Shown one piece after another: positions 5,321 to 36,257 of a stretch of 64,000 nt of DNA. The DNA is from Actinomadura sp. CNU-125 (lineage in GTDB: Bacteria > Actinomycetota > Actinomycetes > Streptosporangiales > Streptosporangiaceae), in assembly GCF_001942465.1 (NCBI RefSeq), contig NZ_MKJY01000066.1, forward strand, positions 1-64,000, written 5' to 3'. Both the position numbers and the translations under genes were made by a program. Position 1 is the stretch's first letter, and each line of letters begins with the position of its first letter. A model generated the notes under the pieces. The model was not told the DNA's origin, made no database searches, and saw only the letters and a list, made by a program, of their open reading frames with translations.

Positions 5321-5708
5321 GACGAGCCCCTCTCAGGCTGTGGCGGTGGCCCGTCGGCGATGATCTTGGACACACCGGGACTCCTCAACTTAAGCCGGGT
5401 CGTCCTGAAGAGGCTTCTTCGAACGTGCGGAAGTCCACCTCTTGCAGAGTGTTGAAAAGCGTGCTTATCCGCTGTTCCTCGACTTCATGGCGGGGAACTC
5501 CTGTAGCCACCGCTCCCCCAAGCCTGGGCGAGTAGCCGCACACGGTGCCGGGAGACATCAGCATGAGTGCAGTGCGCACGTGTTGTCCGTGATCAGATGT
5601 CGGCTGCGCCCCTGCGGCTGCCGTATTTCGGCCGCGCGCATCGATGGGAATAGGGCTTTCCGACCGAACGGCGATGGTGCTCTGATGCGCCGTTCGGCGG
5701 CGCTGACA

Positions 5709-6012
5709 CGCCCCCGGTTTCCTGTCCGGCGAAGGAATGAACCTCACCGTGCCGTGGCCTGCAACCCGACTCGCGTCGGTGGCAGTGGAGGGCTCGGGCG
5801 CTGTCCCGCGCTCGGCGCCCGGAATTTTTTCGTTCCGCTGCTCGTGAGGGCCCTGCGGTGTGGGAGTGCCGCGGTCATCGTGGTCGGCCCGTTGGGGGCG
5901 GGAGTGTTTTGCGTCGTCCGAAAAATTTCCGGGCGCCGAGACGTCGGGTTGCAGGCCCCGTCCCGGCGAGGTGTGGGGGATTCGCCGGACAGGAACCGGG
6001 GGCGCTGCCCCC
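5709..6012. repeat. large imperfect inverted repeat upstream of parB
   Basis: The left arm holds CCCCCGGTTTCCTGTCCGGC (from 5709), GGCCTGCAACCCGAC (5756-5770) and CTCGGCGCCCGGAATTTTTT (from 5810). The right arm holds their reverse complements in mirrored order: AAAAATTTCCGGGCGCCGAG (to 5940), GTCGGGTTGCAGGCC (5943-5957) and TTCGCCGGACAGGAACCGGG (to 6000). The arms are over 100 bases with gaps, and the centre is about 90 bases. A tight hairpin GGGGGC-GCT-GCCCCC (5998-6012) follows directly before the parB ribosome site. No gene is seen in 5321-6037. Possible roles: parS-type partition site, origin element or autoregulatory operator. Confidence 0.7.
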
Positions 6013-6037
6013 AGAGATTTTTGGAGGCGCTCACGAT

Positions 6038-7738
6038 ATGAGCACCACAGCATCGGAACGTGCCCGCGTCGTGATCGCGGTCGAACGGTTGAAGCCGCAT
6101 CCCGAGCATGTTCGGGCGGAGGTGGACCTGAACCGCCAGTTCCTGGCGTCGATCGCGGCTACCGGGGTCATCGAGGCCCTGCACGTTACGCCGGATCCCG
6201 AAGGGCGCGGCGGCTTCCTCATTCTGGAGGGGCACCGTCGTTGGGCGGCTGCGTGCAAGGTCGGGGTCGGTGAGGTTCCGTGTGATGTGGACGCCGGGCC
6301 CAGCGGTGATGCGGGGCGCCAGCATCTGGTGCAGTACATCGCCAACGACCCGGCGCTGCGCACCAACCACAGCCCGTACGAGCAGACGCAGGCTCTGACG
6401 CTGGCCGCCGAGGCCGGTGCGAGCCGGACCGAGATCCGCAAGGCGACCGGGCTCACCGCCGTGGAGGTCAAGCAGGTGCTCAAGGCCGGACGGCTCGGTC
6501 CGGACGGGTGGAAGCGGGTTCGGGAGACGGTCGCGGAGGACTACGAGCTGACGGTCCCCGAGCTGGCGATCCTGGCCGAGTTCCAGGACGACGAGGAGGC
6601 GACGGGACGGCTGCTGGCGGCCGCGCGGTACGGCGAGCCGCTCGAAGCGGTCGCCGGGCTCGTCCGCCGCACCCGCGCCGAGGAAGCCGAGCACCGGCGG
6701 CTGGTGGAACAGCTCACCGGTGACGGCGTGGCCGTGAGCGAGGAGCTCCCCGACGGCGCGGTCGAGCTGGGCGCGCTGCGCGCGGGTGAGGACGTCCTGG
6801 AGGCCGGGGCGCACGGGGGCTGCCCCGGGCGCGGGGCGTGGTTCCCCGCATCGCTGACCGAGCCGGTGCACTACTGCACCGACCCGATCCGGTACGGGCA
6901 CGCGTTCGCCGACCCGGCGTTGGGTGAGCGGGTTCGCGTCCGCGGCGAGCTGGCGGCGGCGGGCGAGAACGTCACCGAGGGGCTCCCGATGGGTGCGTGG
7001 CGGCTGGACTCGCTGCGGCACGACGGGCGGGAGCTGACCGGCGAGGAGCATCGCGGGTGTCCGGGCGCCGGGGTGTACGTGCGGCGGGGCGAAGTGCCCG
7101 AGCCGGTGTACTACTGCCGGTCCGCGGCGGCGCACGGGCACACCGTCCGCAGCAACGGGGTCGCCGCGGCCGCGCCGGGCGTGAAGAAGCCGGAGGAGAC
7201 GCCGCGCCGGGACGTCGTGCGGTTCAACCGGGAGTGGGCGACCGCCGCCGAACACCGCCGCAAGTTCCTGTCGCAGCTGCTGCGGCGCCGGTCCGCGCCC
7301 AAAGGCACGGCGGCCTTCGTGACCGGGCGGCTGCTGGAGATGCCCACCCCCGTGCCGGGCGGGCTGGGGTCCTGGCGCAACGAGTTCCTGTTCACCGAGT
7401 TCACCGGCAAATCGTTCGACGAGGCGCGCCGGGAGGCCGAACGGGCGGCGACGGGACGGCTGCACACGCTGCTGCTCGCCCAGCTCGCCGCGGCGTTCGA
7501 GTACGACATCGCCGACGTCGGCGGCAAGGTCAAGACCGACCGCAGCAACACCTGGCGCACCGACGACCGGACGAACCCGTACTGCAGCCGCACCGAGGCC
7601 GCCGTCTACCTGGAGTTCCTGGTCGCGTGCGGGTACGAGGCGACCGCGATCGAGAAGGCCGTCATCGCCGGGGCCCGCTACACCGGCATCGACCCGGCCC
7701 AGACCGACGTGGAGAAGACCGCGCAGGAAGCCGCCTGA
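6038..7738 (+). CDS. parB: ParB/Spo0J-family protein with duplicated Cys/His motif
   Basis: 566 residues; ATG at 6038 behind TTGGAGGC. Residues about 10-90 are a ParB/sulfiredoxin N-terminal domain (VERLKPHPEHVR, TGVIEALHVTP, LEGHRRWAAACKVG, the last being the nucleotide-binding arginine patch). Residues about 105-170 give the HTH region (NHSPYEQTQALTLAAEAG, EIRKATGLTAVEVKQ). A tandem repeat of about 60 residues follows, each unit containing GCPGxG, then E-P-V-x-Y-C and a G-H pair (first near 250-290, second near 325-365). This is not part of ordinary chromosomal ParB. The C-terminal half is helical. No parA lies next to it; the neighbours are phage-like recombination genes. Role: DNA binding for segregation or element regulation. 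Confidence 0.8.
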   Translation: MSTTASERARVVIAVERLKPHPEHVRAEVDLNRQFLASIAATGVIEALHVTPDPEGRGGFLILEGHRRWAAACKVGVGEVPCDVDAGPSGDAGRQHLVQYIANDPALRTNHSPYEQTQALTLAAEAGASRTEIRKATGLTAVEVKQVLKAGRLGPDGWKRVRETVAEDYELTVPELAILAEFQDDEEATGRLLAAARYGEPLEAVAGLVRRTRAEEAEHRRLVEQLTGDGVAVSEELPDGAVELGALRAGEDVLEAGAHGGCPGRGAWFPASLTEPVHYCTDPIRYGHAFADPALGERVRVRGELAAAGENVTEGLPMGAWRLDSLRHDGRELTGEEHRGCPGAGVYVRRGEVPEPVYYCRSAAAHGHTVRSNGVAAAAPGVKKPEETPRRDVVRFNREWATAAEHRRKFLSQLLRRRSAPKGTAAFVTGRLLEMPTPVPGGLGSWRNEFLFTEFTGKSFDEARREAERAATGRLHTLLLAQLAAAFEYDIADVGGKVKTDRSNTWRTDDRTNPYCSRTEAAVYLEFLVACGYEATAIEKAVIAGARYTGIDPAQTDVEKTAQEAA

Positions 7739-7820: not shown

Positions 7821-8795
7821 ATGGCTCTCGCTCTGGCCACCACATCGGTGACTCCGGCCGCCGAGCCGGTACTGCCCGCGGACGCGCCGCGCCGGCGGTG
7901 GCTGCAGGCACGACGGTCCGGCATCGGCGGTTCGGACGTGCTCGCGGTCCTCGGTCTCGATCCGTGGTCGTCGCGTCTGGCGGTCTACCTCGCCAAGACC
8001 GGCGCCGAGGTCGAACGTCCCGAGACCGACGACATGGTCTGGGGACGGTTCGTCGAGCCCGCGATCGCCGAGTACTTCACCCACCGGACCGGGATCGGCG
8101 CCGTCCGGTGCGGCCTGCTGCGCAACGTCGAGCGTCCGTGGCAGCTCGCGTCGGTCGACCGGCTCACCGCCGACGGGGGCCTGCTGGAGATCAAGAACAC
8201 CGGGCACTGGCGCCGCGCGGAGTGGGACGGCGGGCAGATCGCCGACGGCGCCGAGGCGCAGACCCAGCACTACCTGGACGTGACCGGGCTGCCGCACGCG
8301 TGGGTGGCCGCGCAGGTCGGCGGCGCGCCGCCGCTGATCCGGCGGGTCGAGCGCGACGAGCGGCTGATCGCCGACATGCGCGAGATCGAGCGGGAGTTCT
8401 GGGCGCTGGTCCAAGCCCGCACTCCCCCGCCGCTGGAAGGTGGCAAGGCCGAGGAACAGCTGGTCAACCGCATGTTTCCGCGCGCGCAGCCCGGCCGGAC
8501 GGTCGAGGTCGGCGAGCGCGGCCTGCGGCTGGCGCGCGACTACGACCGGGCCCACCAAGAGGAGGGCATCGCCACGGCCGCCAAGAAGCGCGCCAAGACC
8601 GGCCTGACCCACCTGATGGGCGACGCCGAGGTCGCGACCTACCGCGGACGGACGATCGCGGCGTGGGCGAACGCGTCCAAGACCGGCTACGACGGCGACG
8701 TCCTCGAGGCGAGGTTCCCCGCCGCGGCGGACGCCGCCCGCCGCACCACCGAGTACCGCAAGTTCTCCAACAAGCTGCCGAAGGAGCTGACGTAG
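7821..8795 (+). CDS. YqaJ-type viral recombinase / lambda-exonuclease-like nuclease
   Basis: 324 residues; ATG at 7821 after AAAGGAGGAAGACG. Residues about 25-45 read WLQARRSGIGGSDVLAVLGL, the signature opening of YqaJ nucleases. VWGRFVEPAIAEYF carries the early acidic residue, then ASVDRL and LLEIKNT supply the D...E-x-K of the PD-(D/E)xK site that chelates metal. Such enzymes resect double-stranded ends to give 3' single strands for annealing by RecT. The recT gene starts directly after the stop codon, so the pair forms a phage-type recombination module. Intact and full length. Confidence 0.9.
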   Translation: MALALATTSVTPAAEPVLPADAPRRRWLQARRSGIGGSDVLAVLGLDPWSSRLAVYLAKTGAEVERPETDDMVWGRFVEPAIAEYFTHRTGIGAVRCGLLRNVERPWQLASVDRLTADGGLLEIKNTGHWRRAEWDGGQIADGAEAQTQHYLDVTGLPHAWVAAQVGGAPPLIRRVERDERLIADMREIEREFWALVQARTPPPLEGGKAEEQLVNRMFPRAQPGRTVEVGERGLRLARDYDRAHQEEGIATAAKKRAKTGLTHLMGDAEVATYRGRTIAAWANASKTGYDGDVLEARFPAAADAARRTTEYRKFSNKLPKELT

Positions 8796-9767
8796 ATGGG
8801 ACGCGACCTGGGCAAACGCGTCGCCGACCGGCGCGCGGCGCATTCTCCCGACGGCACCGCGTTCGGCGAGAACGCCAAGGCGGCGACGCTGGACGAGCAG
8901 ATCCAGGCGATGCACGACGCCTTCCAGGCGGCCATGCCCCGCGGCGGTGAGGCCCGTCGGCTCGTCCGGGACGCACTGACGTGCCTGCGCATCACGCCCC
9001 GCCTCGCACAGTGCGAGCCCGACAGCGTGCTGGGCGCGCTTATGACCTGCGCGCAGCTGGGGCTGCGGCCCGCCGTCCTCGGGCACGCGTGGCCGCTGCC
9101 GTGCTGGGACCCAGACGCGGACGGCTACCGTGCCCGGCTCGTCATCGGCTACCAGGGGTACCTCGACCTGGCCTACCGCTCCGGTCACATCGCCTCGATC
9201 TGCGCGCGGACCCGGTTCTCCGGCGACGGTTGGCTGCTGGAGTTCCGCGAGAACGGCGACCGGCTGCGGCACGTCCCCACCGGCGACGGCGCGCGGGGCG
9301 AACCGGTGTCCTACTACGCCCGCGCGCTGCTGCGAGGCGGCGGGTACGCGCTCACCGACCCGATGAGCCACGCCGACATGCGGGCCCACCGCGACCGGTA
9401 CGGCGCCGCCGGGACGCGCGAGCCCGCCGCCTTCGACGCCTGGGAGGACGCCTTCGAGGCGATGGCCCACAAGACGATGATCCGGCGGCTGGCCAAGGTC
9501 CTGCCCAAGGCGTCCGGGCTGGCGACGGCGCTGGCCGCCGACGAGGGGGTCCGCGTCGACCTGGACCCGGGCTCCGACCCGGCCGCGGTCACCGGCCGCC
9601 TCTCCAAGGCGAGCAGGACGACCGAGTCCGCTGCTGTCGACGCCCAGAGGGCGGCCCCCTCCCGGCCAGCACGCGGGCACCCGACTGACCGACACGTTCC
9701 GACCGCATCGCGAAGGCCCGGCTCCGGCCGGGCCTTCGGCGTTCCCGCATCAACTTCGGAGGTTCGC
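8796..9767 (+). CDS. recT: RecT-family single-strand annealing protein
   Basis: ATG at 8796 immediately follows the exonuclease stop. Family features: LTCLRITPRLAQCEPDSVLG, ALMTCAQLGLRP, RLVIGYQGYLDLAYRSG, the W-L-L-E-F strand and AMAHKTMIRRLAKVLPKASG, all in the RecT/Bet order. It anneals complementary strands exposed by the adjacent nuclease. The domain ends near residue 275. The frame has no stop of its own and stays open through a hairpin and ribosome site into the next gene, although another frame has TGA at 9686-9688. Either the true stop was lost by an indel near 9600-9680 or the two proteins are fused. The end given is the base before the next start. Confidence 0.8.
9711..9738 (+). 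terminator. hairpin between recT and the DUF4192 gene
   Basis: An 11-base perfect stem CGAAGGCCCGG with its complement around CTCCGG. It lies in the linker where the recT frame remains open, which argues that the linker is really intergenic. Confidence 0.55.
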
Positions 9768-10925
9768 ATGCACGACGCCCGTCCCGAACTCGGCGGCGAG
9801 TTCGACGATCAGGGGCCGCTGAAGGTCACCGACTTCGGCGAGCTCCTCGGCCTGGTCCCGTACATGATCGGGTTCCCGCCGGAGCACAGCCTGGTCGTCC
9901 TGGGGCTCAGCCCCACAGAAGGCGTCGAGGGCGTGAGGCCCAATCCCATGATCCGGATCGACCTGGCCCCGGACGAGGACCCCGTGCACGAGCGCGACGC
10001 CCGGGCGTCCGGGATCGGGAAGCAGATCGCGTCCGTGCTCGGCCGCAACGGGATCCCCGCCGTGGTGCTGGCGGGGTACGGGACGTCCGAGGCGGTCGCC
10101 CCGTTCGGCACCATCGTCGAGACCCGGCTCAAGACGGCCGGTGTGCAGGTCCTCGACTTCGTCCGGGTGCAGGACGACCGCTACTGGTCTTACATCTGCA
10201 CCGACTCCGAATGCTGCCCGCCCGAGGGCAAGGCCGTACGCACGGACTCCAGCGCCGCCGCCCTGGCCGTCTTCCGCGGGCAAGCCATCGCCAGCAGCCG
10301 TGAACAACTGCGGGCCAGGCTGACCCCGCCGGACGGCCGGGCCGGCGAGCGGATCGCGGCGGCGCTCGCCGAGGCCGCCGCCCTGCTCGCCAAGGAGACC
10401 GAGCGACTCGGCCACGCGGCCAGTCGGCTGCACGCGTTCGAGGAAGCGGAGCGGCTGATCCCCGACGTCCTGAGCAGGGTGAGCGACGGCGCGCCCGCCG
10501 ACTCCTTCGACGACGCGGAACTCGCACGGTTCCTGGTCCTGATCGGCACTCATAACTACGCCCGCGACCTGGCATGGGGCCACGCCGAAGACGCCGACAA
10601 GCAACGGTCCATGGAGTTCTGGTCCGAGATGGTGCGCCGCGCCGGTGCCGGGGACGACAAGGACCTCGTGCCCGCACCGGCGTGCATCCTCGCCCACATC
10701 GCGATTCGGCAGGGCGACGGCGCCATGGTGAACCTGGCGCTCGACCGCGCCGACGAAGCCGACCCGCGCTACGTGGCGGCGAGCCTCCTGCGGAACGTCT
10801 CCATGAGCGGAATCCACCCCGCCGACATCCCCGACTTCCACCCCGGCGACGTCACCGCCGCCTACCGCAAGGAGAAGGACGAACTGCGCCGGGAAGCCGC
10901 CGTGGCGGAACCGCCCACGGACTGA
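9768..10925 (+). CDS. DUF4192 domain protein
   Basis: 385 residues from ATG 9768, preceded by TTCGGAGGTTCGC. The opening LKVTDFGELLGLVPYMIGF and PPEHSLVVLGLS is the signature of the actinobacterial DUF4192 family. A later SYICTDSECCPPEG segment carries a Cys cluster (C-x5-C-C), also usual for the family. The C-terminal half is helical (AEAAALLAKETERLGHA). Function unknown; family members are common on actinobacterial chromosomes and plasmids. It is in frame with recT upstream and followed by its own hairpin. Confidence 0.85.
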   Translation: MHDARPELGGEFDDQGPLKVTDFGELLGLVPYMIGFPPEHSLVVLGLSPTEGVEGVRPNPMIRIDLAPDEDPVHERDARASGIGKQIASVLGRNGIPAVVLAGYGTSEAVAPFGTIVETRLKTAGVQVLDFVRVQDDRYWSYICTDSECCPPEGKAVRTDSSAAALAVFRGQAIASSREQLRARLTPPDGRAGERIAAALAEAAALLAKETERLGHAASRLHAFEEAERLIPDVLSRVSDGAPADSFDDAELARFLVLIGTHNYARDLAWGHAEDADKQRSMEFWSEMVRRAGAGDDKDLVPAPACILAHIAIRQGDGAMVNLALDRADEADPRYVAASLLRNVSMSGIHPADIPDFHPGDVTAAYRKEKDELRREAAVAEPPTD

Positions 10926-12986: not shown

Positions 12987-14122
12987 GTGACCGCACTGCT
13001 CACCACCGCCCGCAACGCCGGCTTGGAAGATTTGACCGCGCTGCTGGAACGGCAGCAGGCCCACAAGGTCGACGTCGTCGTCGGCCCCCGCAACCTCGCC
13101 TTCGAACAGGGCCGCCTCCTCGTGGACGGCATCGAACCCATGCTGACCACTGAGGGCGTTACCGTCGCCAACGGCTCCTACCTGCCGACCGCGACCTGCG
13201 ACGAGGGCCTGGCCGCCAAGCTGGACGTCCCCCGCGGCTACCTCGGCAAGATGCGCGCCGAGGCCGTCGACCTGTACGACACCAACCTCAACGGCTGGCT
13301 GCACCGCGCGCCGTCCGACAAGCGCTACCTGGTACGGGCGCTGCGCGGCGACGGCGGCGGAGGCGTCGCCCGCGCGTTCCTGTCCGACGGCTACAAGCGC
13401 GTCGACAACCTCGACGTGCTGATGGCCACCCTGGACGGCGTCCGCCGCGCGGGCGTCCCGGTCGTCATCGACGGCTGCGACCTGAGCGAACGCCGCATGT
13501 ACGTGCGGATCGTGTCCGAGCACGTCCGGGTCATGGCCCCGCGGCTGCTGCACGACTACCGCTCCCCCTTCACCGGGGAATCGGGCGCCGAGAACCCGAC
13601 CGTCTTCGCCGGGTTCGTCATCAGCAACAGCGAGGTCGGCGGCGGCGCGTTCACCCTCACCCCGCGCCTGGTCGTCCAGGTCTGCCGCAACGGCATGACC
13701 ATCACCCGCGACGCGATGCGCTGCGTCCACCTCGGCAGCCGCCTGGAGGAAGGGGTGGTGACCTGGAGCGCCGAGACCCAGCAGCGGAACCTCGACCTGA
13801 TCGTCTCCAAGACCCGCGACGCCGTCGCCGAGTTCCTCCGCGCCGAGTACGTCGAGGCCAAGGTCGACGAGATCGAGCGGGCGGCGCGCACGGCCGTCCG
13901 CGACCCGCAGGAGACGATCACGCGCTCGGCGAACGGCTCGCCTTCACGCCCGAGCAGCGCACCGAGATCCTCAACCACTTCATCAAGGGCGGCGATCCCA
14001 CGGCGGGCGGCGTCATGCACGCCGTCACCAGCGTCGCCCGCACCACCGACGACGCCGACACGGCCCACGAGATGGAGACCAAGGCCATGCGCGCGCTGAC
14101 GCTGGCCGCCGCCCGCACCTGA
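12987..14122 (+). CDS. DUF932 family protein (one frameshift)
   Basis: GTG at 12987 after AGAAAGGAA. About 377 residues. The family core is clear: GRLLVDGIEPMLTTEGVTVA, KLDVPRGYLGKM, ERRMYVRIVSE, GFVISNSEVGGGAFTLTPRL and VQVCRNGMTITRDAMRCVHL. Near 13920 the frame changes (LGERLAFTPEQRTEILNHFI, then KGGDPTAGGVMHAVTSVART) and ends with TGA at 14120-14122. DUF932 proteins, also called phage/plasmid-like TIGR03299 proteins, are common on mobile elements; their function is unknown. The C-terminal piece is a good match to the family tail, so an indel is likelier than true truncation. Confidence 0.82.
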
Positions 14123-15160: not shown

Positions 15161-15667
15161 ATGATCAACGAAACCAAGATCACCATCGTCGGGAACCTTG
15201 TCGAGGACCCCAAGATGCGGTTCACCGCCACCGGCCAGCCCGTCGTCAACCTCCGGATCGCCTCCAACGCCCGCAAGTACAACGCCGACTCCGGCCGCTG
15301 GGAGGACGCCGACGTGCTGTTCCTCAGCTGCAGCGCCTGGCGGCAGCTCGCCGAGAACATCGCCGAGAGCCTCGAGCGCGGCATGAAGGTCATCGTCACC
15401 GGCCGGCTCAAGCAGAGCTCCTACGACACCGCCGAGGGCGAGAAGCGCACCGTCTACGAGATCGACGCCGAAGAGGTCGGCCCGTCGCTGCGCACCGCCA
15501 CCGCCAAGGTCGTCCGGGCCGCCCGGCAGACCGGTGGAGCCGAACGGAGCGGCGGGTTCGGCCGGGCCGCCGAGCCCGCCCCGACCGGCGGCGGCGGCTT
15601 CGCCGCCGACCAGAACTGGGGCGCCGGGACCGCCGCCGCAGACCCCGCCGACGCGCCTCCCTTCTGA
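15161..15667 (+). CDS. ssb: single-stranded DNA-binding protein
   Basis: 168 residues; ATG at 15161 after CAGGAGGAAACCC. OB-fold core in residues 1-110: ITIVGNLVEDPKMRFTATGQ, VNLRIASNA, FLSCSAWRQLAENIAESLER and MKVIVTGRLKQSSY. A Gly/Ala-rich linker follows, ending in the acidic-hydrophobic tip DPADAPPF, the usual SSB docking peptide for repair and replication proteins. It coats single strands made during transfer and by the YqaJ/RecT module upstream. It is a complete gene, in contrast to the second SSB of the window, which lacks the tip. Confidence 0.92.
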   Translation: MINETKITIVGNLVEDPKMRFTATGQPVVNLRIASNARKYNADSGRWEDADVLFLSCSAWRQLAENIAESLERGMKVIVTGRLKQSSYDTAEGEKRTVYEIDAEEVGPSLRTATAKVVRAARQTGGAERSGGFGRAAEPAPTGGGGFAADQNWGAGTAAADPADAPPF

Positions 15668-20943: not shown

Positions 20944-21084
20944 GCTAGGACTTCGAGGCCACCACCGGAGAACCGGCGAACGACCGCCGTAACGTCCGAC
21001 GGCCCCCGTTCCGGCACGCCGACTATGCCGCACGCCGTTCGTGCCGGAAACCGCGCTGAGCGCGAGGCGGCCACGAGCCCCTTC

Positions 21085-21134
21085 CTGCGGATTCCAAGAT
21101 CTTTTCGCAAGCGAAAACATCTTGGAATCCGCAG
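21085..21134. repeat. hairpin family copy A
   Basis: Arms of 24 bases (21085-21108 and 21111-21134) with a two-base loop, 23 of 24 paired. The core reads AAGATCTTTTCGC on the left and GCGAAAACATCTT on the right, so one position gives a C opposite C. The same mismatch recurs in copies B and C. It lies 115 bases before the gene at 21250. No T-run follows, so it is not a standard terminator. Confidence 0.85.
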
Positions 21135-21249
21135 GGACGCGCGGTTGCCGTCCCGCCCGTCGCACGGCCGGGGTCGACTCAGCCGGAACGGGACACCTAG
21201 GCCGCCAGCGGAGGCGGCCGCCCTCCGGCCGACTCCAGGAGGTACCGCC

Positions 21250-21705
21250 ATGTTCGAGCTGACGTTCCCCTTCGCCATCCGCGGCCAGGTCGCCGCAGCG
21301 CCCAAGTTCCACCCCGTCCCGAACAACCCGTGGCGACGGGCCGGTTTCTCCTTCGCGATCGAGATTCCCCAGGCCACCCTCGGAGTCGCGCTCGTCCCGC
21401 AGCGCTCCCGCAGGATCTACCTCAGCACGGAGGGCAAGCTCGCCGAGAGCATCGCCGACTGCGAACTCATGGTGAACGAACGCCTGCTCGCCATCGTCGC
21501 CGACATCGACTCACTCGGATACCGGCCGAAGAACTACCGGCCCAACCCGCAGAACGAGGGCAAGGAACCGATCCACTCGATGCCCAAGTTCATCATCATC
21601 GCCTTCAAGTCCCTGACCCGGCCAGAACTGTGGGGCGCCGCCCCGGGCAACGAGGACCTGACTCCCTACCTCGTCCCCGACCTGAACCGGGTGGCCGCCG
21701 CCTGA
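21250..21705 (+). CDS. hypothetical plasmid protein
   Basis: 151 residues; ATG at 21250 after CAGGAGGTACCGCC. Opens MFELTFPFAIRGQVAAAPKF, has RIYLSTEGKLAESIADCELM and ends in PYLVPDLNRVAAA. Mixed alpha/beta, no membrane segment, no recognised domain. It is preceded by hairpin copy A and followed by a second small gene with its own strong ribosome site. Confidence 0.7.
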   Translation: MFELTFPFAIRGQVAAAPKFHPVPNNPWRRAGFSFAIEIPQATLGVALVPQRSRRIYLSTEGKLAESIADCELMVNERLLAIVADIDSLGYRPKNYRPNPQNEGKEPIHSMPKFIIIAFKSLTRPELWGAAPGNEDLTPYLVPDLNRVAAA

Positions 21706-26566: not shown

Positions 26567-27136
26567 ATGCCAGCCGACCACAACCTGACGTTCCGGGCCG
26601 CCGCCCACGGGGGATCCCTCACCCACGCCTTCGTGGACTACGGACGTACGCTCACCGACCCGGCCGACCCGGTCGATCTCGACCTGTGCATGCGGCCGGT
26701 AACCCCCGCCGCCCGCACCAGCATGCGAGCGGCCGCCGACGCGGGCGTGACCCTGGCCCTGCTGTCCAACACCGGCCCCGGTCAGGACCGCCGCCGAGCA
26801 CTCCAAGCCGCTGGCATCGCGGACCTGTTCGGCGACCGGGTCTATCTCAGCCACGAGCTAGGTATCTCCAAGCCGGACCGTGTCGTCTTCGAGTACGTCC
26901 TCACCGATCTGGGCGTCGACCCGGAGCAGGCCCTGTCGGTCGGCAACAACATCGACAACGACATCAGCCCCGCGGTGCAGCTCGGTATGCGCGCGGTGTT
27001 CATCAGCCGCTGGCAGCTCGGGAAGTGTTTTCCCGGCATGACCTGGATCAGCAGCATCGCCGCCCTCCCGGTCCTGCTCACGGGCAAGCCCGCCGAGCCC
27101 CCGTCCACGCCGCACCCGGGAGGAGGCGCCGCATGA
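26567..27136 (+). CDS. HAD-like hydrolase
   Basis: 189 residues from ATG 26567. HAFVDYGRTLTDPADP takes the place of the usual D-x-D-x-T motif: the first Asp is kept but the second is Gly. TLALLSNTGPGQDRRRALQA is motif II (S-N), then K-P in LGISKPDRVVFEYVLTDLG and ALSVGNNIDNDISPAVQLGM as motif IV (normally G-D-x-x-x-x-D, here G-N). Two catalytic positions are therefore altered, so activity may be reduced or changed. It overlaps the next start by ATGA, forming one unit with the EEP gene. Confidence 0.75.
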   Translation: MPADHNLTFRAAAHGGSLTHAFVDYGRTLTDPADPVDLDLCMRPVTPAARTSMRAAADAGVTLALLSNTGPGQDRRRALQAAGIADLFGDRVYLSHELGISKPDRVVFEYVLTDLGVDPEQALSVGNNIDNDISPAVQLGMRAVFISRWQLGKCFPGMTWISSIAALPVLLTGKPAEPPSTPHPGGGAA

Positions 27137-27908
27137 ACACCCCGGTCACCCTGCGGGGCTGCACGTACAACCTCCGCAACGGCGGACTGGACGGCCACTT
27201 CGGAGACGACACACGCCTGCTGCTTCAGGTCGAACTGCTGCGGAGCCTGCACCTGGACCTGATCGGGCTGCAGGAGGCCAAATGGGGTGAGCACGGCCGG
27301 TCCCGGCTGGAGGACGTCGCCGATCGTCTCGGCATGACGTGGGCGGACCTGGTCCCCTCGAATTTCCACGGCTGCGACATCGCCGTCCTCGTCCGCGAAA
27401 CCGACCGGGTGAAGGTGACGCGCACGCGGCACCTGACCGGGCCGCCGTTCGTCCACGCCCATGCCGACGTTGAGCTCACGGTCGCCGGCCGGGGCCGATC
27501 CGCTTCATGGTCGGCCATGCCGCGCCGTCGTCGCCGACCAGTCGCTTGACCGAGGCCGAGCTCGTCGGTGTGTACCGAAACCTGAACGTCATCTACGTCG
27601 CCGACTTCAACGCCGCCGCGGCGGGCGAGAAGCCCGACACCAACGGCCTCGACCCGCACCGCGCCGCCCGCAAGAGCGACGACCGTCCCGCCCGGGAACT
27701 CGACCTGTCCGGATTCACCGACGTTGGCGCCCACATGACCGACCCCACCCCGACCGTCGGCCACACTCGCGACGACCCGCTCAAGGTCCGCTGCGACCGT
27801 CAGCACACCACCCTGCCGCACGAGGCGATCACCGGCTACGGCGTCGTCGTCGCGGCAGACGACCTCTCCGATCACCGCCCCGTCTGGGCCGAATACACCC
27901 TCGAATAA
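27133..27908 (+). CDS. endonuclease/exonuclease/phosphatase (EEP) family protein (one frameshift)
   Basis: ATG at 27133. TLRGCTYNLRNGG (with the motif-1 Asn), LLRSLHLDLIGLQEAKWGE (the Q-E metal ligand) and GCDIAVLVRET are the EEP fold opening. Near 27500 the frame changes to VIYVADFNAAAAGEKPDTNG (a D-F-N active-site motif) and ends with DDLSDHRPVWAEYTLE, containing the terminal S-D-H. All core motifs are present across the two frames, so an enzyme of about 257 residues is likely. Substrate unknown: nucleic acid, nucleotide or inositol/phospholipid phosphate esters are possible. Confidence 0.78.
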
Positions 27909-28045
27909 TCCCTGGCCAGACGAGTAGAGCCGAGCTATGCGGCGCCCTCCCGTCTGCCGCACGGCCCATGAACCCGCGATCCCAGCGCCGACGGCGCGCG
28001 TCCTGGGACCGCGGCCCACACCGATGGAGCGCGCCGGAGGTTCAC

Positions 28046-28905
28046 ATGACCATCACGACCCACAACCCCCAGACGACGGCCACCCCCCGACTGCTGTGGC
28101 TCGACCTCACCCGAAAGTGCCAGCTGAACTGCACCCACTGCTACAACGGCTCCGGCCCCGACGGCGGCCACGGGCCCCTGACCGGCGACGACTGGACCGC
28201 CGTCCTCGATCAGGCCGCCGCCAGCGGCTTCCGGCGCGTCCAGCTCATCGGCGGGGAGCCCACCCTGCACCCGTTCGCCGCCGACCTGGTCGAGCACTCT
28301 CTCACCCTCGGGTTGCACGTCGAGGTGTACACCAACCTCGTCCACGTCCCCGACCGCTGGTGGAGCCTGTTCCGGCGGGACGGCGTCAGCATCGCCACCT
28401 CCTACTATTCCGACCGGGCCGACGAGCACGACGCCGTCACCGGCCGCCGCACCCACGCCCGTACCCGCGCCAACATCGCCAAGGCGGTCCTGCTGGCGTC
28501 CCCCTGCGGGCCGGGATCATCACGTTCCCCGGTGAGGCGGGCGGGGCCGCCGCGCGGGCGGCGCGCCGCGACCTGGAGGACCTCGGCGTCACCAGCATCC
28601 GGGCCGACGCTGTCCGGCCCTTCGGCCGCGCCGCCGACGCCCCGCCCGACCGGTCCGGGCTGTGCGGCCGATGCGGCGACGGGCGCGCCTCCATCGGCCC
28701 GGACGGCACCGTCTCCCCGTGCGTGTTCTCCACCTGGATGGGTGTAGGCGACGTCCACGAGGCGTCCCTGGCCGATATCCTCGGCGGCGCCGCGATGGCC
28801 GACGCCGCCGCTTCCATCCGGGCCGTGGCGCAGGACGGAGGCTGCGACCCCGACCAGGAATGCAGCCCGGGAGTACCGGGCAGCGGATGCAACCCGAGGA
28901 CCTGA
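28046..28905 (+). CDS. radical SAM protein with short SPASM-like C terminus (one frameshift)
   Basis: ATG at 28046 after GGAGGTTCAC. WLDLTRKCQLNCTHCYNGSG holds C-x3-C-x2-C for the 4Fe-4S/SAM cluster, and RVQLIGGEPTLHP holds the GGE motif. Near 28500 the frame changes: AGIITFPGEAGGAAARAA, VTSIRADAVRPFGRAAD, then LCGRCGDGRASIGPDGTVSP and CVFSTWMGVGDVHEASL, a typical SPASM-type auxiliary cluster region. A Cys-rich tail (CDPDQECSPGVPGSGC) may bind a further cluster. About 286 residues. No precursor peptide was found nearby. The APH-like kinase starts five bases downstream. Confidence 0.82.
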
Positions 28906-28909
28906 TCCG

Positions 28910-29713
28910 ATGACCTCTCCCCTTCCCGGGGCCAGCTTCACCGAGCTGATCCGCCCGCACACCGGTGCCATCACCGCCGTCCGGGCCACCGGGGCCGGGC
29001 ACACCTCCGACGTCACCGCCGTGGTCGACGGCACGGCCGGGCGGTTCTTCGTCAAGGCGGTCCGCCACCGGCCGGGCGGACGCTTGGAGTCGCTGACCCG
29101 GGAAGGGATGATCAACCCGTTCGTCCAGCCGATCTCACCCCGCGTGCTGTGGCGCGCCGACAACGACGACTGGGCCGTGCTGGGATTCGAGTACGTGCAA
29201 GGCCGTCACGCCGACATCGCGCCCGGCTCCCGCGACCTGCCGCACTTGGTCGACGTCCTGAACCGGATCGCCGTGCTGGCGCTCCCCGAGATCGCCGCCG
29301 ACTGGCCGGAAACACGGTGGGACCGCTACACCGACGGGCCTGGCCTGCTGCGCGGCGACGCGCTGCTGTACACCGACGTCCACCCCGGCAACATCCTCAT
29401 CGGCGATCACGCCACCTGGGCGGTCGACTGGGCATGGCCTACCCGCGGCGCGGCCTGGATCGACCCGGCCCTGCTCGTCCTGCAGCTCGTCGCCGCCGGC
29501 CACACCGCCGCCGCAGCGGAGAGCCTGGCGGCGGGCTGCACCGCCTGGCGCGACGCCGACCCCGAAGCGGTGGACGCGTTCGCGGTCGCCACCATACGGA
29601 TGTACGCGGGGGCCGCCGGGCGCAACCCGGACGCTTCATGGCTCGCCGCGATGGCGTCCGCAGCCCGCGTATGGGGTGACCACCGAAACGCCACTCGGCG
29701 CCCTCGCCGTTGA
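28910..29713 (+). CDS. aminoglycoside-phosphotransferase-like kinase
   Basis: 267 residues from ATG 28910. RFFVKAVRH carries the ATP-binding Lys, LLYTDVHPGNILIGDHATWA is the catalytic loop (D-x-H-x-x-N) and VDWAWP replaces the metal-binding I-D-W-E. The fold belongs to the APH/choline-kinase group; the low similarity in the substrate region does not point to drug resistance. It is likely co-transcribed with the radical SAM gene and would phosphorylate a small molecule or antibiotic-like metabolite. Intact; ends about 50 bases before the convergent regulator. Confidence 0.82.
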   Translation: MTSPLPGASFTELIRPHTGAITAVRATGAGHTSDVTAVVDGTAGRFFVKAVRHRPGGRLESLTREGMINPFVQPISPRVLWRADNDDWAVLGFEYVQGRHADIAPGSRDLPHLVDVLNRIAVLALPEIAADWPETRWDRYTDGPGLLRGDALLYTDVHPGNILIGDHATWAVDWAWPTRGAAWIDPALLVLQLVAAGHTAAAAESLAAGCTAWRDADPEAVDAFAVATIRMYAGAAGRNPDASWLAAMASAARVWGDHRNATRRPRR

Positions 29714-29761
29714 GCCGCGCCCGGCGCCCGCCGGGCCTCACCGAGGTCGGAAGGGTGAGCG

Positions 29762-31114
29762 TTAGACCGCTGGTGAAGTGGCCCCGGCGAGAATCCGGTC
29801 CGCTTTTCCGATGAGCGGGTCGGATCGATGCGGGGCCCACCCACTGCGGATCTGGGTCAGGGTTCGCCTGGCCCGCTGAGACGACACCCCCGCGAGGTCG
29901 TCCGAGATATCGAGTACCGTCCGGGCGGCGTCGTCGGGTCGACGTTGACGGAGCTGGACGTGGGCGAGACGTGCGCCGATCAGCACCCGGGCGCGCCGCT
30001 CGACGGGACGGCGCGTCCTCACCGAGTCGGCGTAGTGAGTCTCGGCGCCGGACAGGTCCCCGAGTTGAGTCAGCGTGAGCCCGACCTGGTGGGCGAACGA
30101 CTCGCGGCGGTAATTGCCGACCCATTCGCATTGGGGGCGTGAGTCGGCGTGTTCGAGTTCGGTTTCGGCAGTGCGCAGGAGTGCGTGGGCCCGGTGGCGG
30201 TCCTGGTCGGCCGCGGCGAGCGTTTCGGCGCACATCCCGGTGATCCAGGCACGGGTCCTCGCGGGCGACCCGTTCTTCACCCCCGCCGCGGCGGCGTCGG
30301 CGAGGTCGCGCGCTTGACGGTTGTGGCCCAGTTCCACGGCCTGGACGGCCAGGCTTCGCAGGGCGGTCGCGCGCATCACCTGGTCCCCGGCCTCGTCCGC
30401 GAGACGGACGGCCTGGATGTAGTACCGCTGGGCCAGGCCGGTGCGCAGGGTGTCGGCCGCCATCCAGCCCGCCAGATACGACAGTTCGGCCGCGGCGACG
30501 AACAGGCCGGGGCGCGCGGTCCCGGTGGTGCCGCGCAGCAGCGGCGCTACGTCTGCGGTCAGGTAGGCGGCTACGACGGTACGGGCGTGGCCTCCGCCGT
30601 ACAGGTCGTCGAGGTCGCTGAAGGCGCGGGTGGTCTGGCGGATCCGGTCGATGTCGCTGTTTCCGCCACGGCGCGCGCCTGCGGTCCGGGCGTGGGCGTC
30701 CCGGGGATGTCCGGGCAGTGCTGCGGCTGCCAGTGAGTACAGGCCGGCCGTGAGAGCGGTGCGGCGGTTGAGCATGTCGTCCCGTCCTAGGTGGGTGATC
30801 CAGACGACGGGGTCGCCGCGCCAGGGATCCTCGGAGACCGTGAACGCAGTCTCGGGCCAGCCGAGGTCGGCTGCGGTCACCGGACGGTCCAGCAGCCGTG
30901 AGAACGCCTCGCAGGACGCTGCCATCGTCTCCTGTTGCGGTGTCGCCCCATTGAGCCATTTACCCAGCGAGGCGGCGGTGCAGCGCAGTTCGGCGCCGCT
31001 CTCTTCCGCCACCCGGTTGATCACGCGGGCGATGGAGGCGTAGGTGTGGCCGGTTCGCCCGATGGCAGTTTCCAGGGCGGTGTTGCGGACAGGGCGTGTG
31101 CGTGGCCGTGTCAT
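29762..31114 (-). CDS. HTH/TPR transcriptional regulator
   Basis: 450 residues. ATG at 31114 has AGGAGG seven bases upstream; the frame is open further up without a better site. N-terminal HTH: TGHTYASIARVINRVAEE, SLGKWLNGATPQQETMAASC. RRTALTAGLYSLAAAALPG near residue 150 is a hydrophobic hinge found in many such regulators. TPR-like repeats follow (FVAAAELSYLAGWMAADTLR, AVQAVELGHNRQARDLADAA, VLIGARLAHVQLRQRRPDDA). Second regulator of this plan in the window, convergent with the kinase gene and divergent from the sulfotransferase gene, so it probably controls one or both. Confidence 0.85.
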   Translation of the reverse strand: MTRPRTRPVRNTALETAIGRTGHTYASIARVINRVAEESGAELRCTAASLGKWLNGATPQQETMAASCEAFSRLLDRPVTAADLGWPETAFTVSEDPWRGDPVVWITHLGRDDMLNRRTALTAGLYSLAAAALPGHPRDAHARTAGARRGGNSDIDRIRQTTRAFSDLDDLYGGGHARTVVAAYLTADVAPLLRGTTGTARPGLFVAAAELSYLAGWMAADTLRTGLAQRYYIQAVRLADEAGDQVMRATALRSLAVQAVELGHNRQARDLADAAAAGVKNGSPARTRAWITGMCAETLAAADQDRHRAHALLRTAETELEHADSRPQCEWVGNYRRESFAHQVGLTLTQLGDLSGAETHYADSVRTRRPVERRARVLIGARLAHVQLRQRRPDDAARTVLDISDDLAGVSSQRARRTLTQIRSGWAPHRSDPLIGKADRILAGATSPAV

Positions 31115-31314
31115 CACGCGCCTCCTCGCGCACCCGGGAGCTTCCTTCTCAACACCCAGAATCCCCTCTGCCCGAGCGCTGAGCAATACAAAGAAAAATG
31201 AGGAAAACGAAGCAAAACCCGTTCCTCTGTCGATCTTGAAGAGCTTGTTCTTTCCTGGTGGGCATCCCGTCGAAAGGCGGGCGCCGATATCCGCCTTCAT
31301 CTGGAAAGACCGCC

Positions 31315-33570
31315 ATGAAACCCACCTCAATGGACCTGTGTCACCAGATCGCTGTACACCTGTCCCGGACCCGGGCCGCGGCCGACGACGAACTGCTGCC
31401 CCCGCTCCTGCTGCTGGGCACCAGCGAACGCGTCGGCTCCAACTGGCTGTCGGACACGCTGCGCCCGCTCATGGATCAGCACAATGAACCGCTCCGCCAG
31501 CAGCTCGCCCCCACCAACCCCCTGTCGGCGCTCACCACGCCCCCTGTACCACTCAGCCACGCCACGCGGCGGCTCGCGCCGCTGGGCCGGTACTGGCTGA
31601 CGGCGTTCACCATCGGCAAGCACACACCGACCCGGCAGGTCATCAAGGAGACCAACCTGCTGTTCGCGCTGCCGAACCTGCTCGGCCTGTTCCCCGACTC
31701 CCCCGTGGCGGTCCTGACCCGCAGCCCGCTCGGGGTCGCCGACTCGTTCCACCGCGGCGACCTGTTCCGCCGCTGGAACTACCCGGCCCGTTACCGGCAG
31801 ATTACCGGCGCCGCCCGCAGCGGCCCCTACCGCGCATTAGTTCCCGACGACGACCCGCCCGACCTGGTGGCCCTGGTGCGGCTGCAGGTCCTCAATACGC
31901 TGCTGCTGGCCACCGCACTCGCCGGCGACCGGCACGCGGTCCAGATCAGGTACGAGACGTCGGTGCTCGACCGCACCACCACGTGGAGGACCCTGACGGA
32001 CCTCGTCCCCGAACTCCCCGCCACGGCGCCGTCCGGCGGCACCGAGCAGACCGACACCGCCGCCGGCGCGCCCGAGCAGGACTTCGCCACCACCGGCACC
32101 AAAACCCGGCTGATGGCGCACCTCACCGCCCGCGACGCCAACCTGATCCAGGCCACCACCGCCGACTGCCTGACCGCCGCCCGCAACATCGCCGACGCCT
32201 CGATCGTGGCGACGGTGGCGGGCTGGCTCACCGGCGCCCACCTCTACACTCTCGCGGCCCTGCCCCGGGCCACCGCACGCCGCCGCCGTGACCAGGCAGC
32301 CCCACGTCCCGACGGGACGGTCCCATTGCGTTTCGTCGAGCGGGCCGGGACCAGGTGGCGCAACCTGCTGGTGGCCAACGCCGAATACGCCGCGTTCCTC
32401 AACGAGCTTCACGCCGCCGGACTCCCCAACCTCCACCACGGCGCCTACCTGCTGGCTTGCCCGATGCCGCACGAACGCGGCGGGCGCCTGCACCACGACC
32501 CGGCCACGTGCCACTGGACGGTCAGCCCCGGCTATGAGCAGTACCCCGCTTACTGGGTGACCTGGATCGGCGCCGCCGCGTTCGCCGCCCGTCACGGCGC
32601 CGCGCTCCCCACCCGCGTCGAGCTGCTCACCGCGGCGGCCCACTGCGGGCGGCTCGACCTGCTCCCCGGCACGACGCAGCCGCGCAACACCGGCTACCGG
32701 TGCGGGGACGTCACGCCGGTCGCCGAACCTGGCCGCCGCGCCGACTCCGTCCACCACCTGATCGGCAACCTGCAGGTGTGGTGTGCCGACGGCCCCAACG
32801 TCGCGCCCGGCCCTGCCGTGCGGTGGCTGCACGGCGCCGCCTGGAACACCCCTGGCACCCCGCGGGAGGTCCACCGGCCCCGGCACCGGCACCTCACCGG
32901 GGCTTCCCGCGGCGTAGGGATCCGGCTGGTCGCCCGCCCCGGCCTGACCGCCGTTCCACCCGAGCGGATCGCCGCGGCACTCTCGGCATGGATCGCCGAC
33001 CTGGACACCGACGAGCCGTTGCACTTGGCCGACGAGCGGCTCATCGCCGCCCTCACCGGTCTGCCCGCACAACGGCCCGCCCACGTCTCACAGGCCGATG
33101 GCCGCCTTGGGGCCCATGTAAGACCCGGCACCGGGCCAACCGTCCCGCGCCAGCTCGACGAACCGGTCACTGAACCCCAGCTCAGCAAGCTTGGCCAACG
33201 CGACGAACTCGACGCCGCGGATCGGGCGGGTGTCGGCACCGGCCTCGACGTCCCCGACGACGCCGCCGACCCGGCGCGCCTCGAACGTCATGTGCACGAC
33301 ATGGGTGCCGCCGCCGGGCAGGTGGTCACAGACGTACAGCAGCCGGCCCGGTTCGACGTCCAGGCCAGTCTCCTCCCGCACCTCCCGGACGAGCGCGTCG
33401 GCGAGCGGCTCCCCATGCTCGACCTTCCCACCCGGAAGCGACCAGGCCCGCCCGGTGTCGGTGTCCTGATCCAGCAACAGGATCCGGCCGTCCTCGATGA
33501 CGACGGCAGTAACTCTGACAGCGATGCGTGCGCCCATCCGCGCACCGTATCCCGTAGGAAGGGCCGGTGA
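31315..33570 (+). CDS. sulfotransferase domain fused to a formylglycine-generating-enzyme-like domain
   Basis: ATG at 31315 after GGAAAGACCGCC. Residues 1-280: sulfotransferase fold with PLLLLGTSERVGSNWLSDTL as PAPS-binding loop, VAVLTRSPLGVADSFHRGDL as the 3'-phosphate site (R-x-P) and LVALVRLQVLNTLLL. Residues about 360-560: SUMF1/FGE-type lectin-like domain with LPNLHHGAYLLACPMP, YPAYWVTWIGAAAFAARHGA, GNLQVWCADGPN, WLHGAAWNTP and GVGIRLVARP. FGE converts Cys to formylglycine in sulfatases; a link to a sulfotransferase in one chain is unusual. The frame stays open to 33570, but from about 33085 it runs antisense through the NUDIX gene, so the real end may be near 33085. Confidence 0.65.
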   Translation: MKPTSMDLCHQIAVHLSRTRAAADDELLPPLLLLGTSERVGSNWLSDTLRPLMDQHNEPLRQQLAPTNPLSALTTPPVPLSHATRRLAPLGRYWLTAFTIGKHTPTRQVIKETNLLFALPNLLGLFPDSPVAVLTRSPLGVADSFHRGDLFRRWNYPARYRQITGAARSGPYRALVPDDDPPDLVALVRLQVLNTLLLATALAGDRHAVQIRYETSVLDRTTTWRTLTDLVPELPATAPSGGTEQTDTAAGAPEQDFATTGTKTRLMAHLTARDANLIQATTADCLTAARNIADASIVATVAGWLTGAHLYTLAALPRATARRRRDQAAPRPDGTVPLRFVERAGTRWRNLLVANAEYAAFLNELHAAGLPNLHHGAYLLACPMPHERGGRLHHDPATCHWTVSPGYEQYPAYWVTWIGAAAFAARHGAALPTRVELLTAAAHCGRLDLLPGTTQPRNTGYRCGDVTPVAEPGRRADSVHHLIGNLQVWCADGPNVAPGPAVRWLHGAAWNTPGTPREVHRPRHRHLTGASRGVGIRLVARPGLTAVPPERIAAALSAWIADLDTDEPLHLADERLIAALTGLPAQRPAHVSQADGRLGAHVRPGTGPTVPRQLDEPVTEPQLSKLGQRDELDAADRAGVGTGLDVPDDAADPARLERHVHDMGAAAGQVVTDVQQPARFDVQASLLPHLPDERVGERLPMLDLPTRKRPGPPGVGVLIQQQDPAVLDDDGSNSDSDACAHPRTVSRRKGR
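33088..33537 (-). CDS. NUDIX hydrolase
   Basis: 149 residues. The NUDIX box GGKVEHGEPLADALVREV with REETGLDV is complete (G-x5-E-x7-R-E-x2-E-E). Opens MGARIAVRVTAVVIEDGRIL, LLDQDTDTGRAWSLPGG. Hydrolyses a nucleoside diphosphate linked to an unknown group. It is read on the opposite strand through the 3' part of the sulfotransferase frame and divergent from the nucleotidyltransferase gene starting at 33567, which leaves only about 29 bases for two promoters. A NUDIX enzyme next to a sugar nucleotidyltransferase suggests control of a nucleotide-sugar pool. Confidence 0.88.
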   Translation of the reverse strand: MGARIAVRVTAVVIEDGRILLLDQDTDTGRAWSLPGGKVEHGEPLADALVREVREETGLDVEPGRLLYVCDHLPGGGTHVVHMTFEARRVGGVVGDVEAGADTRPIRGVEFVALAKLAELGFSDRFVELARDGWPGAGSYMGPKAAIGL

Positions 33571-34388
33571 CCGGGGAACAGCCCGCGCACGTGGTGATCG
33601 CTGCGGGCGGCCTGGGCACCCGCGTCGCCCACTGGTCCCGCTACCTGCCCAAGGAGTACCTCCCGGTCGACGGGCGTCCAGGAATCGTCCACGTCCTGGA
33701 GGAGGCCGCCGACCTCGGTCCCGCCCACGCGGTGGTCGTCTACCACCCGTACTACGAGAACTTCGCGGCCTGGGCCCGCCAGACCCTCACCGCCGACGGA
33801 CATGCCCGCTACATGAACGCCGCTCACCGGCCGCCAATGGGCGCCCGTCACCAGCCAGGAGCCGACCGACTCCGCGTCGACCTCGTGCCGCAGCGCGGCC
33901 CCTACGGCGACCTCACCTCCGTGTTCAACGCCGCCGACCACCTCGGCGACCCCGACGAGTTGTACGTCGCCTTCAGCGACAATCTCTACCCCGGTGCTCA
34001 CGCCCTGCGCCAGCTCCGCGACCGGCGCCCGGCCCCCTGCGTCCTGGTGCGTCCCTACCGGCCCGATCTCGCCAAGTCCAGAGGCGTGATCATCACCGAC
34101 GGCCACCGCATGATCGGCCTCGAGGAGAAACCCGACGCCAAGACCGCCAGTCGCCTGGAACAGCAGTACGGCGCCCGAAATTTGCTGCTGCTCGAAGGGC
34201 GGATCCGCATCACCCGTGATTTCGTCCACTACGCACGACACCATCACGCCACCGCGAACTCGGAACCCAAGCTCGCCCTCACCCTCGCCGACTACGCCAA
34301 GAGCCATTCAGTCGGCGTGGTCGTCACGAACCATCCCGTGATCGACCTCGGTGCACCTACCGCGCCATCGCTTCTCACCACCCAATGA
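33567..34388 (+). CDS. sugar-phosphate nucleotidyltransferase (GalU/RmlA-like)
   Basis: 273 residues from GTG 33567 after GGAAGGGCCG. HVVIAAGGLGTRVAHWSRYL then PKEYLPVDGRPGI gives the G-G-x-G-T-R nucleotide loop and the Lys that binds the sugar phosphate. ELYVAFSDNLYPG holds the metal Asp and GLEEKPDA the later E-K-P. It would join a nucleotide to a sugar-1-phosphate. The length is at the short end of GalU. Partners on the window: NUDIX, EEP and HAD genes, all acting on phosphate esters. Confidence 0.85.
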   Translation: MTGEQPAHVVIAAGGLGTRVAHWSRYLPKEYLPVDGRPGIVHVLEEAADLGPAHAVVVYHPYYENFAAWARQTLTADGHARYMNAAHRPPMGARHQPGADRLRVDLVPQRGPYGDLTSVFNAADHLGDPDELYVAFSDNLYPGAHALRQLRDRRPAPCVLVRPYRPDLAKSRGVIITDGHRMIGLEEKPDAKTASRLEQQYGARNLLLLEGRIRITRDFVHYARHHHATANSEPKLALTLADYAKSHSVGVVVTNHPVIDLGAPTAPSLLTTQ

Positions 34389-36185: not shown

Positions 36186-36257
36186 GGGCCGCCAAGATCT
36201 TTCCGGCTTCAGTCCCACATGACGTCCGCAACAACCCCGGAAACATCTTGGCGGCCC
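36186..36257. repeat. hairpin family copy B
   Basis: Arms of 21 bases (36186-36206 and 36237-36257), GGGCCGCCAAGATCTTTCCG against its complement, with a 30-base loop; 20 of 21 pair. The odd pair is again C opposite C in the AAGATC / AAACATCTT core. It lies 98 bases before the zinc-binding small gene at 36355. Confidence 0.85.

Follow-up and report, generated by a model that had tools for sequence, protein, structure and literature searches.

Early expression of genes from DNA that enters the recipient as a single strand is known in enterobacterial plasmids such as F and ColIb-P9. According to the available text of one report (PMC9849209), the Frpo1 and Frpo2 sequences of F, when single-stranded, fold so as to rebuild -10 and -35 boxes, and they are required for the early, transient expression of the leading genes, Frpo2 lying upstream of ssb. 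Relatives of Frpo were found by Samuel et al, as far as the accessible part of their paper describes it (PMC11541004), through similarity and consensus boxes, a search that would probably miss the actinobacterial hairpins described below. On F, ssb, a ParB-family gene and a DUF932 gene lie on the strand of traM. For the virion RNA polymerase of phage N4, the promoter signals on single-stranded DNA are small hairpins of the template strand, each with a loop of three bases; in the hairpins described here, by contrast, the mini-hairpin is part of a fold of 130-300 nt whose boxes have sigma-type spacing.

EGeRS1 of the pLS20 family is, in the part of the report available (PMC8708921), a conserved block rich in inverted repeats that precedes several establishment operons without a strong ordinary promoter, as do the present hairpins; it differs from them in its length of 400-600 bp and in that the strand transferred there does not serve as template. 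Given this strand assignment, and because no promoter was seen in the fold, its authors dismissed single-strand promoters (same source and extent). Among the matches listed, the titles and abstracts of open-licence PMC papers named no such elements in actinobacteria. The family described here bears on how high-GC Gram-positive conjugative elements express their establishment genes on arrival.

The hairpin upstream of a parB-like gene

We analysed a stretch of 64,000 nucleotides from Actinomadura sp. CNU-125 (contig NZ_MKJY01000066.1, positions 1 to 64,000; hereafter the window). An inverted-repeat search of the window found three nested inverted-repeat pairs at 5709-6004, ahead of a parB-like gene. 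Three mirrored blocks had been described at this place in an earlier sequence-only reading; the three nested arm pairs are borne out, with arms of 22-30 nt instead of the 15-20 then given, around a centre of 86 bases. The parts are:

5709-5733, + strand: outer stem P1, left arm, pairing with 5981-6004; seen as inverted repeat and in RNA and DNA folds, present in the relative G060
5741-5770, + strand: middle stems P2 and P3, left arm; inverted repeat pairing with 5943-5972, 87% complementary
5811-5832, + strand: apical stem P5, left arm; inverted repeat with 5919-5940, 95% complementary, with an AT-rich tip and one T.T mismatch
5833-5918, no strand: apical loop, poorly conserved
5919-5940, + strand: apical stem P5, right arm; inverted repeat
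5943-5972, + strand: middle stems P3 and P2, right arm; inverted repeat
5981-6004, + strand: outer stem P1, right arm; inverted repeat
5998-6012, + strand: small GGGGGC-GCT-GCCCCC hairpin before the ribosome site, overlapping the end of the P1 right arm

P1 is 91% complementary over 5712-5733/5981-6002 and 100% over 5709-5719/5994-6004. The GGGGGC hairpin beside the ribosome site, also remarked in the sequence-only reading, is present; because the outer right arm ends in the same bases that form its first half, the two pairings are mutually exclusive. Small hairpins resembling it are seen by eye in several relatives. The long hairpin ends 34 bases upstream of the parB-like ATG at 6038, and GGAGG stands at 6023-6027.

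Folds were compared with dinucleotide shuffles on both strands, as RNA and as DNA. The RNA fold of 5700-6045 reaches -208.4 kcal/mol on the + strand and -192 kcal/mol on the - strand (z -8.1 for each), thus favouring the coding strand, and the DNA fold of 5700-6012 (z -7.3 and -8.8 on the two strands) barely favours the template strand (-107.3 vs -104.4); in each of the four cases, 0 of 100 shuffles was as good. The site is indeed more structured than a normal promoter, as had been proposed, its fold lying far beyond the shuffles on both strands and for both nucleic acids. With Rfam 15, nothing reached the gathering score in 11 loci, and the window between 5000 and 8000 gave matches only below that score, so that a known Rfam family was rejected for this hairpin. 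A plasmid search returned no DNA similar to it, and in its own genome the sequence is single-copy, its own mirrored arms aside.

Within the genus, DNA matching the hairpin was found in 3 of 65 genomes: its own, G060 and G002. G060 carries a parB-like gene with a hairpin at the same place (z -15 and -17, 12 shuffles each). In the pairwise alignment with the window, 54 pairs are unchanged, 3 have a change on a single side, 6 have both sides changed and 9 do not pair, and identity amounts to 119/144 in paired columns and to 33/86 in the apical loop. On the conservation of the arms in close relatives, a point the sequence-only reading had raised, G060 thus keeps the arms while the loop drifts. G002 holds the left half only (L005 1501-1659, 83% identical), by eye near transposase-like reading frames, and a protein search gave no parB-like match there.

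A family of hairpins and the elements that carry it

A related-locus search returned seven loci, and a family model, R1, was built from seven hairpins. By eye, a long hairpin precedes parB in eleven loci, the window included; most of these parB-linked hairpins have a common GCAACC/GGTTGC stem, which in many family members is related to P2/P3 of the hairpin at 5709-6004, and a CTCGCTNCGCTC side loop. Alignments of eleven hairpin sequences gave a poor consensus, and the RNAalifold consensus contains pairing in conflict with the GCAACC/GGTTGC stem; the latter stem was used. When 15 other parB-like loci were folded, 12 were without a strong upstream fold.

Among 341 genomes of the bacterial family, 27 have R1 matches and 28 have parB-like genes (protein search, E 1e-20), and in a sample of 396 genomes across the phylum R1 matched only in the genome of the window; both model searches, each covering over 40 genomes, were run with stricter filters, at cut-offs of E 0.01 and 0.001, respectively. 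Named members come from Actinomadura atramentaria, Sphaerisporangium melleum, Nonomuraea aridisoli and an actinomycete MAG, and one more (G019) is probably from Actinomadura kijaniata, to judge by an identical contig position. In these searches, the family was found only in Actinomadura and its bacterial family. Two further copies lie in the window:

21005-21192, + strand: second family hairpin, before the gene at 21250; model match at 21020-21176 with 45.2 bits, fold of 20960-21300 at z -4.75
36186-36257, + strand: third, weaker copy, covering the apical part and followed by a small gene at 36355; 24 bits, E 0.036, same apical motif

A weak model match at 55105-55241 (E 0.03) is placed among - strand genes. 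The R1 searches gave no match to the hairpin at 5709-6004, which is without the AGATCTTTT/AAAACATCTTG core; it was assigned to the family because of its place, its architecture and the existence of intermediates, L043 and L110 among them, and we consider its membership likely. In many copies, the AGATCTTTT/AAAACATCTTG apical stem (e.g. window 21084-21135) has a C.C mismatch, read as G.G from the template strand; a bulge of one base is frequent as well.

Compensatory change was first measured on a 7-sequence MAFFT alignment, where 25 cells are changed on both sides vs 10.7 after shuffling. In the covariation alignment of 65 matches fitted to the model, of which 8 rows are opposite-strand echoes, 91.1% of cells pair, both-sides-changed cells number 435 vs 135 shuffled, and double changes are found in 45 of 47 pairs, although the significance against shuffles is overstated because the hairpin copies are related. 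For the counts that follow, we took the 65 model matches, removed the 8 echoes (which overlap a stronger match) and the weak L115 5932-6108, and added the hairpin at 5709-6004, which gives 57 copies; G326, the small extra matches in G211:C19 and G339:C785 and the parB-linked hairpins of G060, G327 and G014 are outside this set. Clustering at 80% identity over 100 nt gave 31 clusters with one representative each, different clusters still being related.

The next downstream gene lies on the same strand in all 57 copies with no opposite gene between, at a distance of 34-116 nt in 49; gene starts were taken from our own simple gene finder, so that some of the other 8 distances (168-685 nt) probably reflect missed starts. 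Among the products are ParB-like, SSB (one scoring above the Pfam cut-off and another below it), DUF4192 and DUF932-like proteins, as well as small cysteine-rich proteins without a family. In the window, the genes concerned are:

6038-7738, + strand: ParB-like gene (ParB_N E 5e-4, below the Pfam cut-off; phrog_6218, ParB-like, E 6e-38)
7821-39140, + strand for the genes meant: candidate leading region, a stretch that also holds cargo genes on both strands
7821-8795, + strand: YqaJ, in the candidate leading region
8796-10925, + strand: RecT and DUF4192, in the candidate leading region
12987-14099, + strand: DUF932-like, in the candidate leading region
15161-15667 and 38676-39140, + strand: two SSB genes, in the candidate leading region
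39593-40996, + strand: MobF relaxase (NF041492, 132.7 bits, cut-off 100)
about 40450-43071, + strand: relaxase-type helicase part, resembling TraA/TraI relaxases below their cut-offs
56683-59540, - strand: type IV coupling protein (TraG/TraD type) and a weak TraC-like ATPase (18 bits)

The DUF932-like protein has no Pfam match and is 59% identical over 306 residues to a protein annotated DUF932. Since the window encodes both a MobF relaxase and a TraG-type coupling protein, transfer of the element as single-stranded DNA is to be expected. The relaxase gene shares the strand of the hairpins for all 20 mapped copies, in 6 of 6 elements in which a relaxase was found (the window, G282, G003, G017, G216 and G208), with up to four copies per element; 18 of the 20 lie on the 5' side of the relaxase gene and 2 beyond it. 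Likewise, 12 of 13 contigs with at least two copies have all of them on one strand. Overall, we are highly confident that members of the family are conserved, structured elements of leading regions that fold as single strands.

Folded strand and promoter-like boxes

The explanation that we hold to be the most probable is that the block before the parB-like gene belongs to a family of hairpins, long and imperfect, that act as Frpo-like single-strand promoters in the leading regions of MobF-type elements. The element would enter the recipient as a single strand, on which the template strand of the leading genes would fold back into a duplex; RNA polymerase would start at boxes of this folded strand, and SSB, ParB-like, DUF932-like and RecT/YqaJ proteins would then be made before the DNA is double-stranded. 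The template strand would thus be the transferred strand, and expression would stop on conversion to double strand. This proposal draws on computed observations: structure, compensatory change, place before leading genes, sharing of the relaxase strand, and the template-strand bias and box spacing presented here.

Which strand folds was read from mismatches, energies and loops. In Watson-Crick-only folds, the single (1x1) mismatches comprise 26 G.T and 59 A.C when read on the coding strand, and 54 G.T and 26 A.C when read on the template strand; restricted to the main hairpin with one copy per cluster, the coding-strand counts are 13 and 30 (p 0.014). By this measure, 15 of the 31 representatives prefer the template strand, 6 the coding strand and 10 tie; in the 57 copies there are 20 ties, and 11 copies favour the coding strand. 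DNA energy favours the template strand in 55/57 copies, and, as base composition alone already does so (shuffled difference of 7.9 for RNA and 4.6 for DNA), we also counted the preferences beyond shuffles: 48/57 copies and 24/31 representatives for DNA, and 51/57 copies beyond the shuffled mean for RNA. The side loop GC-GNA-GC is found on the template strand in 38/57 copies (17/31 representatives) and on the coding strand in 5/57 (3/31), with 52 template-strand occurrences vs 16.4 expected from the flanks, and 5 vs 11.2 on the coding strand. For GC-GNRA-GC, 35 of the 57 copies have it on the template strand and 3 on the coding strand, with 38 template-strand occurrences vs 6.7 expected. Such GNA/GNNA loops closed by two G-C pairs form exceptionally stable DNA mini-hairpins, as stated in the available text of PMC4686876. 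Family-wide, the evidence points to folding of the template DNA strand rather than of the transcript, whereas in the copy at 5709-6004 taken alone either strand may be the one that folds, its RNA energies favouring the transcript strand.

The same template-strand mismatches, loops and DNA energies would also be produced by a single-strand initiation site, on which the folded transferred strand loads a polymerase or primase and primes the second strand, the hairpins standing before genes only because intergenic space is found there. A 1997 paper by Masai and Arai reportedly presents Frpo, in its title, as promoter and primer site, which counts for this alternative, and an initiation role could exist together with a promoter role. 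Up to four copies per element, each before a same-strand gene, are nevertheless more than priming needs, and we regard an initiation site on its own as unlikely.

The sequence-only reading had thought of a transcript fold controlling parB, which comes near in that a single-strand fold is the best reading, and departs from the family evidence in that the template DNA, not the transcript, is favoured. Extended to the family, it becomes an mRNA leader: a fold in the coding-strand RNA would control every downstream gene and serve as a signal common to one regulon. It would suit the adjoining same-strand gene and the strong RNA fold of the parB-linked copy, which is better on the coding strand, and the pLS20-family establishment genes do share inverted-repeat leaders in the part of the report available (PMC8708921). 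Across the family, however, wobble-type mismatches and GNA/GNRA loops are on the template strand, and a promoter upstream is not apparent: coding-strand TANNNT occurs before the hairpins in 7 copies vs 14.4 shuffled, it is absent between the right arm and the start codon (0 vs 5.3 shuffled), and coding-strand -35/-10 pairs in, before or after the hairpins are not above shuffles. An mRNA leader is therefore improbable as well.

Single-strand promoters were sought by taking the left-arm side of the folded template strand as the non-template strand. So read, the loose pattern TTG-(18-22 nt)-[C/T]A-three letters-T is present in 25/57 copies vs 0.9 shuffled, with a spacer of 17 or 18 in 20 of the 25. 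Anchoring was possible at TTG in 46 copies and not in the other 11. At a spacer of 16-18 after TTG, NANNNT follows in 37 of the 46 and in 20 of 24 cluster representatives (shuffled representatives: mean 1.0, maximum 5 in 300), 9 anchored copies being without boxes. At other spacers from 8 to 27, it occurs twice at 15, once at 24 and nowhere else in the 46, and on the right arm TTGNNN-(16-18)-NANNNT is found in 0/28. Within NANNNT, A and T are kept and the middle letters vary; the first -10 position seldom has a T, and full TTG[AC]/TANNNT pairs are found in 0/57 copies. The fold would show a -35-like TTGNNN, 16-18 nt and a -10-like NANNNT directed toward the gene. The parB hairpin of G327 has TTGCGG-16-CAGGCT. 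In the window, the - strand through 5741-5770 and adjoining bases reads TTGCAG-17-TTCATT, a -35-like box with no clear -10 (the A is missing), and the G060 hairpin has no NANNNT at spacer 16-18.

Only in the folded-back template strand are these boxes directed toward the gene; in double-stranded DNA they point away from it. They might thus be an ordinary double-strand promoter directed outward, with the RNA of the other strand folding as an antisense or regulatory RNA, which would account both for TTGNNN-17-NANNNT on the - strand of the left arm and for the template-strand bias. We judge this very improbable: it leaves the short distance to the sense gene without a reason, it places the boxes within a covarying stem, and T is rare at the first -10 position.

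A promoter on the folded strand, in turn, has its closest counterpart in F. The Frpo/ssi sequences of F and ColIb-P9 are, like the present family, long imperfect hairpins upstream of leading-region genes with more than one copy per element, and F also has an AT-rich apical stem before ssb. Read in the same manner, its hairpin upstream of ssb gives TTGTGG-17-GACAGT, with the spacing and looseness of most anchored copies. Two further stretches of F, when folded, gave nothing clear. R1 finds no match in the F leading region at E 1 (F being the only plasmid compared), the ParB protein of the window has no similarity to the ParB-family protein of F, and the DUF932-like proteins are weakly similar (E 0.003). 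The family further differs from Frpo by its conserved GNA/GNRA mini-hairpins and AGATCTTTT/AAAACATCTTG core, by its presence in one actinobacterial family only in the searches made, and in being known here from sequence alone. We hold that it probably works like Frpo but do not file it as a member, since sequence similarity is lacking and the activity is a prediction. In our estimate there is about an even chance that it represents the first actinobacterial family of single-strand-DNA promoters, having the geometry of Frpo without sequence relation, distinguished by GC-GNA-GC/GC-GNRA-GC mini-hairpins and a mismatch-bearing apical stem, and joining leading-region operons into one regulon that is on only while the DNA is single-stranded. 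A searchable model, the strand polarity and boxes that line up only in the fold make early expression directly testable, and the family would mark actinobacterial leading regions.

A parS-type partition site or an origin for the ParB-like protein, both suggested in the sequence-only reading, agrees with the place of the hairpin directly before the parB-like gene; we find it hardly credible, as relatives also precede SSB, DUF4192 and many other non-parB genes, other parB-like genes are without a hairpin, and the arms drift with compensation, unlike a short fixed double-strand palindrome, while the origin found no support. A decaying MITE-like mobile repeat lying before parB by chance, as the half copy of G002 near transposase-like frames and without a parB-like match might suggest, was rejected on the single copy in the genome of the window and is equally remote given the compensated arms at the same place in G060.

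Further observations on the hairpin-bearing elements

The contig with copies on both strands (G011:C3) has, on its - strand, a divergent copy of the hairpin together with remnants of a parB-like gene (L082 5509-5653), 14 kb away from an intact copy on the opposite strand; the former is possibly a decayed second element. In the window, the MobF relaxase is apparently split into two overlapping reading frames (39593-43071) by a frameshift, a sequencing error or decay. The ParB-like protein (6038-7738) has, by eye, two CPGxG...C..P...GH-like repeats with a metal-binding look, and several relatives carry one.

Cargo genes at 26567-34388 (+ strand) match HAD hydrolase, radical SAM, FGE-sulfatase-like and nucleotidyltransferase proteins and perhaps form a small biosynthetic island. 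Two large proteins are encoded on the - strand. One, at 44142-51278 next to the transfer genes, is very large and combines RHS repeats with a PT-HINT domain in a polymorphic-toxin-like architecture; the other (51657-55373, 1238 aa) carries ricin-type beta-trefoil lectin domains. On a Streptosporangium plasmid (L011 3812-4765), a sigma-70 family gene lies ~1.2 kb upstream of the parB-like gene, with DUF932 downstream, and is a candidate for an element-encoded transcription factor.
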